Origin: a virus | Direction: 5' to 3' (one strand) | DNA: 25,916 nt | Virus record (IMG/VR): IMGVR_UViG_3300025840_000217 | Span: 1 to 25,916 of that record | Shown here: one piece after another, positions 9,851 to 21,771 of the stretch | Numbering within the stretch: position 1 is the stretch's first letter | Layout of the letters: each line of letters begins with the position of its first letter | Position numbers and translations under genes: made by a program | Notes under the pieces: model-generated | Database searches by the model: none | Told to the model about the DNA's origin: nothing | What the model saw: only the letters and a program-made list of their open reading frames with translations

Positions 9851-10372
9851 TTGGGACTTAAACTCATCTATAGTATTAGATTGCACTAGATACTTATTCT
9901 CTAGTTCATACAAATCACATTTAGTAATTAACTTACTACCATCTGACCTAGTTCTTTCTTGACCTGTGCCAAAGAACTTTGCTTTATCAATAAACTCATC
10001 TTTATCTATCCATCCACATATAGTCAATACTTTGTCTATTTTATGTAGACTGCAAAATACATACCTATCCACTTCATACTTTGCCTGCATACCTATTAGA
10101 TTATTTACATAATAGTCTTTAGGATACGATGTTCTCCCCATTGTCTTAACATCATAAGTCTTACCATTTAATAAAAAATCTATTCCGTTATCAAACCCAC
10201 CACTAAAGTCACTGTGTAAGTTTAGTATATTACATATCATGTATTGACCTACAACTCCAATTCTTTGTTCTTTGAACCCTCCATCTGCATAACCACGATT
10301 ACCCAGACTGTAACGCTTAACAATATCATAACTATATCTTGCTACTTCATCTGATATAGGTATGTTAATTAT
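9833..10372 (-). CDS. PD-(D/E)XK nuclease-like protein, apparent non-AUG start
   Basis: From the first ATG (10240) the frame gives 135 residues, but it is open upstream and the upstream codons read as good protein: IINIPISDEVARYSYDIV, then YSLGNRGYADGGFKEQRIG-like sequence. Core motifs are GFDNGIDFLLNGKTYDVKTM (Asp, then the D-x-K of the PD-(D/E)XK fold) and a downstream CGWIDKDEFIDKAKFFG segment. No ATG, GTG or TTG gives the longer form. The likely start is ATA (10372) or ATT (10369), in an ATAA overlap with the stop of the gene upstream, 3 nt after a GGAGG-rich stretch. It lies in the early minus-strand operon; a role in host DNA breakdown or recombination is inferred. Confidence 0.7.
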   Translation of the reverse strand: MINIPISDEVARYSYDIVKRYSLGNRGYADGGFKEQRIGVVGQYMICNILNLHSDFSGGFDNGIDFLLNGKTYDVKTMGRTSYPKDYYVNNLIGMQAKYEVDRYVFCSLHKIDKVLTICGWIDKDEFIDKAKFFGTGQERTRSDGSKLITKCDLYELENKYLVQSNTIDEFKSQLLLPD

Positions 10373-10695
10373 GCTCCTACCCTCCTACCTACAATGGTGA
10401 GTAGATTATCTATAGCTATTTGTAGTTTGTATTCATACAACTGTGGCTTTTTAGTATTAAGATAACGAGCATAAATGGCTTCTTTTTGGTCTTTAGGGAG
10501 ACTATGAATCACAGCATCAACTGTTCTTACATTGGTATCTTCTACATCTTCATACATCTCATCAAACGCATCATAACTAGATTCACCTCCACTAGACATT
10601 CCTAGAGACTTACTAGGATAACCTAGCTTATGATTGTCAGAGTTCATGTATCGTTTCCACTTATCCAACAACTCTAATAATCTATCCATCTCCAT
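10369..10695 (-). CDS. Putative antiterminator/sigma-like regulatory protein
   Basis: 108 residues. The C-terminal half, HSLPKDQKEAIYARYLN followed by YKLQIAIDNLLTIVGRRV, has the helix-turn-helix rhythm seen in ArpU/Q-like phage regulators and in sigma region 4-like proteins of phages. The N-terminus is a short amphipathic helix and a Ser/Gly linker. The start overlaps the previous stop as TAATG. A role in switching on late transcription fits its position at the end of the early operon, but this is inference. Confidence 0.5.
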   Translation of the reverse strand: MEMDRLLELLDKWKRYMNSDNHKLGYPSKSLGMSSGGESSYDAFDEMYEDVEDTNVRTVDAVIHSLPKDQKEAIYARYLNTKKPQLYEYKLQIAIDNLLTIVGRRVGA

Positions 10696-14693: not shown

Positions 14694-15616
14694 GGTCTAT
14701 CCCTATATCTCATGCCCTTTCGGTCATAATAAAAGTTAAAAGTAGGCTCTCCGTTTTCCCCTATGTAGTTTCTTTGTTTTTGCACAAAGACTTTAGCATC
14801 AGGGATATTTCTTATTTGCTCATCTGATAGTTTATCATCCTCCATTTGTTTTTCTTTCATTTTATTTCTCCATACAGTCAACAGATTGTCTGCAAGATTG
14901 ACAATGTGGTTACTGCCATGCACATCATTTTTAGATGGGTGTTCATACACATCACGCATTTTTTTTGTATGAGCCACTAGAAAGATATGAATAGGGTATT
15001 TACGGCACATTGAAGTTAATTGGTCTACAAACTTCTTCTGTGCATCATAATTATCCTCTGCAATATCATTCATCTTCATCAAACTATCTATCACTATAAT
15101 TTTACATCCTAAAATATTGTAGGCATATTCAATCATAGCGTAGATGGTTCTTGTTTTAGTTACATTGGCTTGATTGTAGATATATAGTTTATTTTTCATT
15201 ATATCCACAAAGTTATTAATACAGTCATCTGTAACATCTGCATGACCTTCTAACTGTGTCATCATTCGGCTACAAGTGTATATAGGGTGCATTTCTAAAC
15301 TGGCTATAATGCACTTTGTGCCACTTTGTAATTGCTTTAACACTACCTGTGATAACCACATGGTCTTGCCTGAACCATTTGTGCCTGATACCACTGTAAT
15401 TTCATGTGGTCTTATGAGAAATCCCTCATTAGTATGATGAAACCCTAGCCCATTACCTTTTTTGATACCACCACGATACCAACTATGAATATCCTTGCGT
15501 ATATCATCTGTGGTTATGATAGAGAATTTTTGTTCTAACTCACCTGTTAGTTCATCAATCTTATCACTGTCAATGGTTAGTTCGGCTATAATTTCACCTG
15601 TGCTTAACTCATTCAC
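14690..15616 (-). CDS. DnaB/T7 gp4-type replicative helicase (RecA-fold, no primase domain)
   Basis: 308 residues. Walker A GTNGSGKT at 78-85, catalytic Glu in ASLEM (about 108), Walker B KIIVIDSLMK (about 172-181), sensor His in FLVAHTKK (216) and an arginine-finger-like QRNYIGENGEPTFNFYYDRK near the C-terminus are all present, so it should be an active hexameric helicase or related RecA-fold ATPase. The N-terminal 60 residues are too short for a primase. The start is GTG at 15616, overlapping the end of the regulator gene. It would unwind the phage genome for replication. Confidence 0.85.
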   Translation of the reverse strand: MNELSTGEIIAELTIDSDKIDELTGELEQKFSIITTDDIRKDIHSWYRGGIKKGNGLGFHHTNEGFLIRPHEITVVSGTNGSGKTMWLSQVVLKQLQSGTKCIIASLEMHPIYTCSRMMTQLEGHADVTDDCINNFVDIMKNKLYIYNQANVTKTRTIYAMIEYAYNILGCKIIVIDSLMKMNDIAEDNYDAQKKFVDQLTSMCRKYPIHIFLVAHTKKMRDVYEHPSKNDVHGSNHIVNLADNLLTVWRNKMKEKQMEDDKLSDEQIRNIPDAKVFVQKQRNYIGENGEPTFNFYYDRKGMRYRDRP

Positions 15617-15797
15617 TCACGGTTTCCTTTTCCATGTCTTGAATGATGTCTTTAATCTGATAAGCCCTTAATAAAGGTATCTTATCGTTTTTAAACCATA
15701 CATTGACGGCTTGTCTTGATACCCCTAATGTTGTTGCTAGTTTTGATTGTGAATTATCAAAATACGGCATAATGCCTGTTAGTGTTATGTCTTGCAT
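15609..15797 (-). CDS. Cro/C1-like helix-turn-helix regulator
   Basis: 62 residues. SQSKLATTLGVSRQAVNVWF is a canonical helix-turn-helix, followed by IPLLRAYQIKDI as in Cro-type proteins. AAGGAG precedes the ATG by about 7 nt. It lies directly upstream of the helicase and overlaps it. Without an integrase or a second repressor in view, it is more likely a timing regulator of early genes than a lysogeny switch. The palindromes listed in the intergenic regions are candidate operators. Confidence 0.75.
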   Translation of the reverse strand: MQDITLTGIMPYFDNSQSKLATTLGVSRQAVNVWFKNDKIPLLRAYQIKDIIQDMEKETVSE

Positions 15798-17603: not shown

Positions 17604-17909
17604 ATGCAAACATATCAAGATTTAAAAAACTATGAAAAAGATTTAACAATAGAATTAGATAGATTATCAAAATATAAGGGGGATTATTCAGATAATATTT
17701 TTAATAAACATATGCAAAGTGAAATAAGAAAAGAATTAATAAAAATTGAAAGATATATAAATAAATATGAATTAAAATTTAAATATTCTTTGGCTTGGTG
17801 TTGTAAATATAATAAAGAATATGATTTTAATAAAGATTATTTTTATTTAAAAGATAGATATTTATTAAATACAAGTTTAGATAAAAGAAATATTGTTAAA
17901 AAAGATTAA
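17604..17909 (+). CDS. Hypothetical Lys/Tyr-rich protein, extremely A+T-rich gene
   Basis: 101 residues from ATG 17604: QTYQDLKNYEKDLTIELDRL, then a long charged helix and a Tyr/Lys/Asp-rich C-terminus. GGAGAGTAAA precedes this ATG, so I prefer it to the upstream TTG (17592), which is part of the ribosome site. About 20% GC by eye in a sample line, well below the head genes. It is a self-contained unit: promoter upstream, terminator right after the stop. A coiled-coil or nucleic-acid-related role is possible; no family recognised. Confidence 0.6.
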   Translation: MQTYQDLKNYEKDLTIELDRLSKYKGDYSDNIFNKHMQSEIRKELIKIERYINKYELKFKYSLAWCCKYNKEYDFNKDYFYLKDRYLLNTSLDKRNIVKKD

Positions 17910-17935
17910 AAAAGGGGTAAAAAAATACCCCTTTT
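17910..17935. terminator. Intrinsic terminator after the 17604 gene
   Basis: AAAAGGGGTA (17910-17919), A6 loop, TACCCCTTTT (17926-17935): a perfect 10-bp stem whose right arm ends in the U-run. The A-run on the left arm makes it able to work in both directions. It starts at the stop codon of the gene. Confidence 0.85.
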
Positions 17936-17938
17936 CTA

Positions 17939-17967
17939 TTGACATTTATTTTAAATGAGTGTATAAT
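17939..17967 (+). promoter_or_regulatory. Perfect-consensus sigma70 promoter
   Basis: TTGACA (17939-17944), 17-nt spacer, TATAAT (17962-17967). Both boxes match the consensus exactly at ideal spacing, the strongest promoter I see in the window. The only thing downstream on this strand is a short stretch ending in a terminator hairpin at 18022-18039. Confidence 0.8.
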
Positions 17968-17973
17968 GTTTAT

Positions 17974-18045
17974 CGATGGGATAACTACGCCTAAAGAATA
18001 CATAAATTAAGAGCAAAAAAAAGGGGCTAAAAAGCCCCTGTTTTA
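17974..18045 (+). ncRNA. Candidate phage small RNA
   Basis: Predicted transcript from the perfect promoter to the hairpin AGGGGCT-AAAA-AGCCCCT and following U-rich stretch, about 72 nt. The only ATG after the start is followed at once by a stop (ATG GGA TAA), so it is non-coding. The 5' part (GATGGGATAACTACGCC and on) is A-rich and mostly unpaired, with an A-run before the hairpin. If the terminator leaks, the transcript would be antisense to the minus-strand genes 18027-18577. Confidence 0.5.
18022..18039 (-). terminator. Bidirectional terminator, strong on the minus strand
   Basis: AGGGGCT (18022-18028), AAAA loop, AGCCCCT (18033-18039). Read on the minus strand the hairpin is followed by seven U (complement of 18015-18021), a strong intrinsic terminator for the gene 18027-18176, whose stop lies inside it. 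On the + strand it is followed by GUUUUAU, weaker but usable. Confidence 0.85.
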
Positions 18046-18176
18046 TATTCATTTATATATTGTTTAAACATTTTCTTACAGTCTTTAATTGAATAACCAA
18101 TATACTTTTGTTTTATATATTGATTATTAACAATATCTGAAATAAGAATAAATTGATTAGTTTTTTCTACTGTCAT
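18027..18176 (-). CDS. Small phage protein (YIGYSIKDCKKMFKQY type)
   Basis: 49 residues: TVEKTNQFILISDIVNNQYI, then KQKYIGYSIKDCKKMFKQYI. The YxGYSxKxAKxxFK pattern looks like small conserved proteins of marine phages, without known function. AAGGA lies about 9 nt before the ATG. The last codons form one arm of the terminator hairpin. Confidence 0.6.
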   Translation of the reverse strand: MTVEKTNQFILISDIVNNQYIKQKYIGYSIKDCKKMFKQYINEYKTGAF

Positions 18177-18265: not shown

Positions 18266-18577
18266 TTATAGTGATAATTCTTGAATTGCTTTTTTACCTA
18301 AAATAATAAGGTCGGAATTATCTAGCTCATCTAATAAACACCGAATTAGAAAAGCATATTCTATTTCATGTAATGATTTTGCTTTATCATATAACTCTGA
18401 CATGGCATCATTCAGATTAACTCTGATAAATAGCCCTATTTTAGAATGTAAATCAGGATCAACGCCATTGACATTTAATGTCATATGAAACTCTTTTAGG
18501 CGTTTGAATAAATCCTCATCATCGTTAACAGCATTAAGAATTGAATCAACTAAATATCCATCTGGAATAGTAAACAT
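18266..18577 (-). CDS. Hypothetical acidic helical protein
   Basis: 103 residues, acidic and Leu-rich: FTIPDGYLVDSILNAVNDDE, then several helices ending SDLIILGKKAIQELSL. AAAAGGATATTATT precedes the ATG. A good promoter lies about 75-100 nt upstream. It may be a host-directed early protein. No family recognised. Confidence 0.65.
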   Translation of the reverse strand: MFTIPDGYLVDSILNAVNDDEDLFKRLKEFHMTLNVNGVDPDLHSKIGLFIRVNLNDAMSELYDKAKSLHEIEYAFLIRCLLDELDNSDLIILGKKAIQELSL

Positions 18578-18650: not shown

Positions 18651-18679
18651 ATAATAACAGTATCAATCTACATTGACAA
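18651..18679 (-). promoter_or_regulatory. Leftward promoter for 18266-18577
   Basis: On the minus strand TTGTCA (18674-18679), 17-nt spacer, TATTAT (18651-18656): 5/6 in each box. The -35 overlaps a TTGACA on the + strand (18673-18678), and a palindrome TTGATT-N9-AATCAA lies at 18687-18707, so this is probably a shared divergent control region for 18577 (leftward) and 18753 (rightward). The + strand -10 is poor. Confidence 0.55.
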
Positions 18680-18752
18680 GATATAATTGATTTAAATAAT
18701 TAATCAAACTAACAATAATCATAAGTAAAATAAAATTGACAAAGGTTTAATA

Positions 18753-19148
18753 ATGAGTGATAATAAAGATATTGACAGTAATGTTATAATGGGGGAAGTC
18801 GAGCCCAAAAAAGTAGGCAGACCCCCACACCTTCCAGATGGCGATACCCGAAAACAAGTGTATGAATTAAGTAAAGTAGGTACTCGGTACGAAGATATCG
18901 CAACTATGTTGTCAATCTCTGCTGACACCCTCACAAAGTATTATCCAGAAGAACTTAAGCGTGGTCGTATTGAGGCTAACTCTGTCATTGCTGGTACATT
19001 GTATGAGAAAGCTAAAGCAGGTGATACGACTTCTATGATATTTTGGCTTAAATCTCGTGCACAGTGGAAAGAGACACAAAAGCATGAGCATGGCGGAGAC
19101 CCAGACGGTGCTCCTGTTCATGTAAAAGTCATTACAGGAATAGAATAG
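18753..19148 (+). CDS. Putative terminase small subunit (DNA-binding)
   Basis: 131 residues. KKVGRPPHLPDGDTRKQVYE is followed by a helix-turn-helix (GTRYEDIATMLSISADTLTK) and a long helix pair with GTLYEKAKAGDTTSMIFWLK, as in small terminase/DNA-packaging proteins of aquatic phages. It should recognise the packaging site and present DNA to the large terminase at 20503. It starts the rightward packaging/head block. AAAGG lies about 8 nt before the ATG. Homology cannot be checked here, but context and fold agree. Confidence 0.7.
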   Translation: MSDNKDIDSNVIMGEVEPKKVGRPPHLPDGDTRKQVYELSKVGTRYEDIATMLSISADTLTKYYPEELKRGRIEANSVIAGTLYEKAKAGDTTSMIFWLKSRAQWKETQKHEHGGDPDGAPVHVKVITGIE

Positions 19149-20502: not shown

Positions 20503-21771
20503 ATGGAGTCGCAATCAATAGATACAGGGTATAGACCCCGTGACCCACAAAAACAGATACACCAACTCGTTAAGAACAACCGTTTTTCAGTAGTGGTTGC
20601 TCATAGACGAATGGGCAAAACCGTATGTGCAATTAACCAACTGATACATTCAGCGTTAATTTCTGACAAAGCTAACCCTAGATTTGCCTACATTGCACCA
20701 ACTTACAATCAAGCGAAGCGAGTGGCTTGGGATTATCTTCTTGAGTACACCAGACCGCTAGGAGGTAAAGCAAACATTGCAGAACTACGAGTGGACTTTA
20801 TGGGTCGCAGGATTTCTTTGTATGGAGCTGATAACCCAGACTCTCTTCGAGGTATCTATCTTGACGGCTGTGTTATTGATGAGATAGGTGATGTCAACCC
20901 TTCTTTGTTTACAGAGATTCTACGACCAGCATTAGCTGACCGACAAGGTTACTGTATTGCAATGGGAACACCGAAAGGTCAAAACCATTTTAAAGATTTA
21001 AGAGACAGAGGCGAGAAAAACGAAGGTTGGTCTTTGCTTGAGTTTAAAGCATCAGAAACAGAATTACTCCCTAAAGAAGAATTAAAAGCTGCCTATGATG
21101 AAATGGGCGAAGACAAATACATGCAAGAGTTTGAATGTTCTTTCCAAGCTCCTGTTGAGGGTTCTTACTATTCTAAACTGATACATGATTTAGAAGAAAA
21201 AGGTAGATTAGTGTCTATAGAACCAGATGGTTTAGCGAGAACATACACAGGCTGGGACTTGGGTATGTCTGATTCTACAGCAATATGGGTAGCACAACTG
21301 GTCAACAAAGAGATAAGGTTAGTCGACTATGTGGAAAATCATGGTGTTGGTCTTGATTATTATGTGAGCTGGTTACAAGAAAACGATTGGATGTATGCAA
21401 CACACATTCTTCCTCACGATGTTGCCGTTAGAGAGTTGGGTACAGGTAAATCGAGAAAAGAAATGTTGGAAGATGCTGGATTACAAATCACAATAGCACC
21501 CAGATTTAATGTACATGATGGTATTCAATCAGTCAGACGAATACTACCGCGATGCTGGTTTGACCCAGAAAAAGTAAAACAAGGATTAGATGCTCTACGA
21601 AATTACCGCAGAGTGTTTGATGAAAAAAGAAATGTATTTCATGACCGACCGTTACATGATTGGTCATCACACGCAGCCGATGCGTTTAGATATTTAGCAG
21701 TAGGTTTAGACGAGTCTCCTATGGAGTCATGGCACAAACCTATTACAGTCAACAATAAATGGATTGTGTAA
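20503..21771 (+). CDS. terL: Terminase large subunit (ATPase-nuclease)
   Basis: 422 residues. ATPase: AHRRMGKT (33-40, Walker A variant), CVIDEIGD (123-130, Walker B with Asp-Glu) and MGTPKG (154-159). Nuclease: GWDLGMSDSTA (about 250-260, first catalytic Asp) and WSSHAADAFRYL (about 387-398, later Asp). Together they are the classic packaging motor of tailed phages, which pumps DNA into the prohead and cuts it. AAGGAG lies 12 nt upstream of the ATG at 20503, rather far. It is flanked by two A/T-rich accessory genes. Confidence 0.95.
   Translation: MESQSIDTGYRPRDPQKQIHQLVKNNRFSVVVAHRRMGKTVCAINQLIHSALISDKANPRFAYIAPTYNQAKRVAWDYLLEYTRPLGGKANIAELRVDFMGRRISLYGADNPDSLRGIYLDGCVIDEIGDVNPSLFTEILRPALADRQGYCIAMGTPKGQNHFKDLRDRGEKNEGWSLLEFKASETELLPKEELKAAYDEMGEDKYMQEFECSFQAPVEGSYYSKLIHDLEEKGRLVSIEPDGLARTYTGWDLGMSDSTAIWVAQLVNKEIRLVDYVENHGVGLDYYVSWLQENDWMYATHILPHDVAVRELGTGKSRKEMLEDAGLQITIAPRFNVHDGIQSVRRILPRCWFDPEKVKQGLDALRNYRRVFDEKRNVFHDRPLHDWSSHAADAFRYLAVGLDESPMESWHKPITVNNKWIV

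Follow-up and report, generated by a model that had tools for sequence, protein, structure and literature searches.

A probable Q-dependent late-gene control unit of the lambda pR'/tR' kind in relatives of Methylophilales phage Venkman

Why should a perfect sigma-70 promoter be followed by a hairpin terminator after only about 70 nt? This question is raised by a 25.9-kb virus record, called the window here, in which a first-pass annotation had read the short stretch as a candidate small RNA that could act on phage or host mRNAs. The short, terminated, noncoding transcript is backed by conservation, but the trans-acting part of that claim was not supported, since the body of the transcript varies among relatives and the unit tracks the gene of a Q-like antiterminator and the beginning of the late operon. 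This is the behavior of a cis-acting leader. Thus, the short RNA is most likely the attenuated leader of the late-gene message rather than a free-acting small RNA, and the unit very probably serves Q-dependent control of the late genes, in the manner of lambda pR'/tR'.

Anatomy of the unit and gene layout in the window

The features of the window (coordinates, strand and description) were as follows:

10369-10695, minus: Q-like antiterminator homologue, 108 aa, recognized by sequence identity to an annotated Q
17907-17938, no strand assigned: hairpin between a 105-aa plus-strand ORF and the promoter, called by the scan as a minus-strand terminator
17939-17967, plus: sigma-70 promoter, late-type, TTGACA-N17-TATAAT, 12/12 match in a sequence scan
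17974-18043, plus: predicted leader transcript of ~70 nt, counterpart of the lambda 6S RNA, with its 5' part kept in relatives
17977-17993, plus: short hairpin in the 5' part of the leader, UGGG/CCUA, weak in the window copy (z -0.54), stronger in relatives
17978-17989, plus: consensus-pause motif GG-N8-CG, GGGATAACTACG, predicted pause at about +15/+16, containing GATAAC
18022-18039, plus: tR'-like intrinsic terminator, AGGGGCT-AAAA-AGCCCCT, found by a scan of both strands; also terminator of the convergent minus-strand ORF
18027-18176, minus: 49-aa ORF converging on the terminator, from the ORF call
18753-19148, plus: terS (PHROG terminase small subunit, E 7.8e-18), first recognized gene of the late block
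20503-21771, plus: terL, 79% identical to the terminase of Methylophilales phage Venkman
22700, plus: portal, named by position

The promoter singled out by the first-pass annotation was confirmed to the letter and is the sole 12/12 sigma-70 match within the 15.9 kb scanned. Among 200 dinucleotide shuffles of the AT-rich window, 8.5% contained a 12/12 promoter by chance, so that the promoter alone is just mildly unusual. The combination of a promoter of at least 10/12, GGG-N6/7-Y(G/C) and a terminator occurred in 0.5% of 200 window shuffles. Judging from the position of the -10 element, the leader would start at 17973-17975. As had been proposed, no usable reading frame was found in 17968-18021 (ATG GGA TAA at 17976-17984), and the transcript runs into a hairpin after about 70 nt. 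The tail of this hairpin is weaker on the plus strand (GTTTTATATT) than on the minus strand (TTTTTTTG), as befits a bidirectional terminator, because the 49-aa minus-strand ORF ends inside the same hairpin. Upstream of the promoter, the hairpin at 17907-17938 may insulate the unit against upstream transcription, presumably by acting on the plus strand as well. No Rfam family was found in the window at gathering thresholds, and a DNA search of the 1-kb region among "phages" gave no match.

The unit had been placed between divergent early blocks, a description that needs correction. The minus-strand ORFs on its right (18027-18176 and 18266-18577) sit between the terminator and terS and converge on the unit, and the plus-strand late block with terS, terL and portal lies beyond them. 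TerL is also 76% identical to its counterpart in MW202481. By likeness to the gene order of MW202481, the minus-strand block of the window reads as erf, exonuclease and SSB, and a helicase gene was assigned there by a family match. A P22 Cro-like DNA-binding protein (15609-15797, minus strand; PF14549, E 9.6e-9), whose gene overlaps the start of the neighboring helicase gene, may be a repressor of early promoters.

Recurrence of the unit and its linkage to Q and the late genes

The exact 19-mer GGGATAACTACGCCTAAAG was present in seven IMG/VR contigs. Four loci (L013, L018, L084 and L085) shared a 47-nt core that was 91% conserved but had different promoter spacers and convergent ORFs, and others, among them L012 and L016, had the same architecture in a different sequence. 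Across the relatives, conservation extended no further than the promoter, the first ~25 nt and the existence of a terminator. The leader body varied in sequence and in length, from 57 to about 101 nt, with an insertion in L004.

In MW202481, a 12/12 promoter, GTTGGGATAGGTGCG and a terminator start at the last codon of the gene for "phage antitermination protein Q," and a minus-strand ORF block follows ahead of terS. L026 and L088 likewise carry Q, the unit, a minus-strand ORF block and terS in this order, which is the layout of the window with Q still attached. EBPR podovirus 1 has a minus-strand unit between gp41, a 34% identical Q-like protein, and TerS. In L110 and L126, Q, a GGGATAA(C/T)TACGCC leader with its terminator, terS, terL and portal all lie on one strand (the names terS and portal rest on likeness and position). 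Three related terL loci, in which Q was not seen, carry a promoter, a short leader and a terminator with other leader sequences (L075 near 6383, L032 near 172 and L037 near 6589); the L075 leader forms a perfect GGGTAT/ATACCC hairpin.

The linkage to Q was quantified in loci encoding a Q homologue, fetched as the best 80 of 170 and the best 80 of 402 matches. After removal of 3 loci that were too short and 91 duplicates from the 166 with Q, 72 nonredundant loci were left, which are not independent, because duplicates were removed only when 120 nt were identical. Among these loci, drawn from the best 80 of 170 and the best 80 of 402, the unit lay at most 230 nt downstream of Q in 43 of 72 and 595 to 981 nt downstream in a further 8 (L115, L119, L122, L128, L145, L167, L172 and L235); in 3 more (L110, L151 and L092), it was missed by the script and recognized by eye. 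No unit was found near Q in 18 of the 72 loci, most of which carry a window-type Q, for which a unit at some other place is expected. None was recognized anywhere in L005, L008 or Venkman. By eye, the ORF that intervenes in several loci with a distant unit resembles a DNA methyltransferase.

A scan of both strands of 3.85 Mb for promoter, GGG element and terminator returned 17 distinct hits; since the motif derives from these same units, their recovery is expected, but their exclusive placement is not built in. Eleven hits lay 1 to 10 nt after Q and 1 at 747 nt, 3 were 2.7 to 2.8 kb upstream of terL, 1 was that of the window, and 1 (L111) lay on the other strand from Q. TerL was present in the locus of 7 hits, and all 7 pointed at it. 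The same scan on shuffled sequence gave 0, 2, 0, 0 and 0 hits, and a looser unit scan also picked up 3 distinct sites that lay near neither Q nor terL.

Moreover, a search of the whole IMG/VR collection with the 17-nt leader motif TGGGATAAYTACGCCYA returned 56 stretches. A promoter of 11 to 12/12 was present just upstream, at the right distance, in 44 of them and absent in 12. A same-strand Q lay upstream in 34 of the 44 promoter-bearing matches, and the other 10 comprised 8 window-type loci, L286, which has terL downstream, and L272, in which neither gene was found. A terminator was recognized by an automatic criterion in 40 of the 44. Wherever terL was found in the locus, it was on the same strand and downstream of the promoter. 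None of the 12 promoterless matches had Q or terL. In L260, L278, L280 and L294, contigs of 134 to 329 kb, the motif stands, with neither promoter nor Q, in unrelated surroundings that are identical among the four; we took these occurrences to be due to chance.

A pause motif in the leader and a Q homologue outside the Pfam models

The sequence GG-N8-YG, which we take to be a form of the consensus pause, was found in 30 of 36 distinct leaders, compared to 7.9% in shuffles, and thus predicts a pause near +15. GATAAC within GGGATAACTACG is a possible -10-like element, but such elements were not clearly enriched, with at least 4 matches in 16 of 36 leaders and a mean of 3.47 versus 2.92 in shuffled sequence. 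Many leaders folded into a 5' hairpin (mean z of -1.9 over the 36 leaders compared to -0.54 for the window), and compensatory changes were present among relatives. When the named 5' helix was counted, 73% of its cells were paired and its covariation score was 0.284, compared to at most 0.165 for slid versions, but RNAalifold found no consensus pairs in the leader alignment, in which the MAFFT register was wrong for some rows. Reading of the promoter spacers between -35 and -10 by eye established no shared or direct repeat that could serve as a Q binding element (QBE).

The Q homologue of the window is encoded on the strand opposite the unit, 7.2 kb away. It is 60% identical to the "phage antitermination protein Q" of MW202481 and 48% identical to the "antitermination-like protein" of Venkman. 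Neither the window protein nor the MW202481 Q matched the Pfam Q models at an E value of ≤0.1 (PF06530, PF03589 and PF06323; accessions from PMC7171158), and NCBIfam and PHROGs gave just weak or unrelated matches, the best PHROG being "transcriptional activator" (E 0.0041). A PDB sequence search with the Q alignment returned matches that look unrelated, with pentatricopeptide repeat chains as the best.

The predicted structure of the window Q homologue (pLDDT 79.8, pTM 0.71) was then used in fold searches. The top 11 rows were all sigma factor chains or domains, mostly region 4, with weak Z scores of 3.8 to 6.2, too low for a safe fold match. The 21Q and lambda Q chains were absent from these results, and Foldseek returned nothing at an E value of ≤0.001. 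A sigma region 4-like fold is described for 21Q (PMC6606751). The modeled fold would agree with it, at scores too weak to prove membership.

A proposed switch and the alternatives to it

From the anatomy, conservation and linkage described above, we infer a sequence of transcription, pausing, Q loading and antitermination. Host sigma-70 polymerase would initiate at 17939-17967 and pause about 15 nt into the transcript, at GGGATAACTACG. By default, it would stop at the hairpin near 18040 and leave the ~70-nt leader. The early minus-strand operon would make the Q homologue, which would load onto the paused polymerase, so that this terminator and later ones are ignored and transcription continues through the plus-strand late block (terS, terL, portal and beyond). 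Points that weigh against this scheme are the loci with Q but no recognized unit, the lack of a QBE among the spacers read by eye, the weak -10-like element, the lack of Pfam Q or Foldseek matches for the Q family, the off-context hits of the looser scan and, in the window, the two minus-strand ORFs ahead of terS and the two promoter-like sites beside it. According to three reports, lambdoid Q proteins bind a site at the late promoter, load at a promoter-proximal sigma-dependent pause that requires a -10-like sequence and keep terminator hairpins from forming (PMC6606751, PMC9371919 and PMC7171158).

In a comparison with the lambda sequence, pR'/tR' shares with the unit a strong promoter, a 5' leader hairpin, an antiterminator gene just upstream and a GGG with a YG step after it, spaced almost equally from the -10 element. 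The lambda leader, called 6S RNA, is ~190 nt long and ends at tR', whereas the leaders found here are shorter. The window also differs from lambda in the remote position and opposite strand of its Q, in which a Pfam scan finds no relation to lambda Q. With phage 21 Q and its QBE, the likeness would lie in the sigma region 4 domains that are the best, though weak, matches of the window Q model; unlike that system, the window Q has no Pfam Q match, and no direct-repeat QBE was identified. AlpA and PalpB of Pseudomonas aeruginosa similarly combine promoter, pause, intrinsic terminator and antiterminator but drive bacterial lysis genes (PMC9371919).

A trans-acting regulatory RNA would be an abundant species of ~70 nt that base-pairs with mRNAs of the host or the phage through its conserved 5' segment. 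The strong promoter, the terminator and the lack of an ORF fit such an RNA, as does the 91% conservation of the 47-nt core among window-type phages whose downstream ORFs differ. We nevertheless consider it improbable: conservation is confined to the ~25 nt transcribed initially, the unit follows Q and the orientation of the late operon, and the window has no Rfam match above threshold. No RNA body or seed was found to be kept independently of the late operon; the body was variable and the context fixed. A second role of the leader in trans, alongside its role in cis, is compatible with these observations.

The short 5' hairpin with its compensatory changes would also suit an RNA-only antitermination leader similar to HK022 put, in which the nascent hairpin modifies the polymerase and the Q-like neighbor is incidental or auxiliary. 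Given the weakness of the hairpin in the window, the lack of RNAalifold pairs and the Q homologue that adjoins the unit in most loci examined, this reading is very improbable. Barely credible, finally, is an ordinary strong early promoter that merely meets the terminator of a convergent minus-strand gene, without any regulation. The hairpin does terminate the region of the 49-aa ORF, but L110, L126 and EBPR podovirus 1 keep a terminator even though their next genes run the same way.

The Q-dependent control unit would thus be a known principle, namely, a Q-type late-gene switch that has its own Q family, in a phage group for which it was not described in the literature covered, which includes few subscription journals. 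In text searches, a report on Methylophilales phages (PMC8024684) makes no mention of antitermination, small RNA, ncRNA, promoter, late gene or terminator, and one on another Methylophilales phage (PMC9004378) makes no mention of antitermination. The unit would extend Q-type late control to Venkman relatives and other aquatic phages, mostly metagenome contigs, provide a candidate loading site for a Q family that lacks a Pfam model and offer a simple signature by which the late promoters of uncultured phages can be located. A further lesson is a caution against equating a strong promoter plus a terminator with a small RNA until an antiterminator gene has been checked for.

The opposite-strand blocks ahead of terS in the window, L026 and MW202481 suggested a further, rather unlikely reading, namely, that an unrecognized Q family of aquatic phages acts on a leader that combines a short, covarying RNA hairpin with a consensus pause, and that the Q-modified polymerase crossing the opposite-strand genes silences them by antisense. 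If so, a single switch would turn the late genes on and other genes off. Beside the start of terS, two 11/12 promoter-like sites (18673-18700 and 18736-18764, plus strand), in sequence common to L013, could be alternative late promoters that start transcripts without Q, or could be due to chance.
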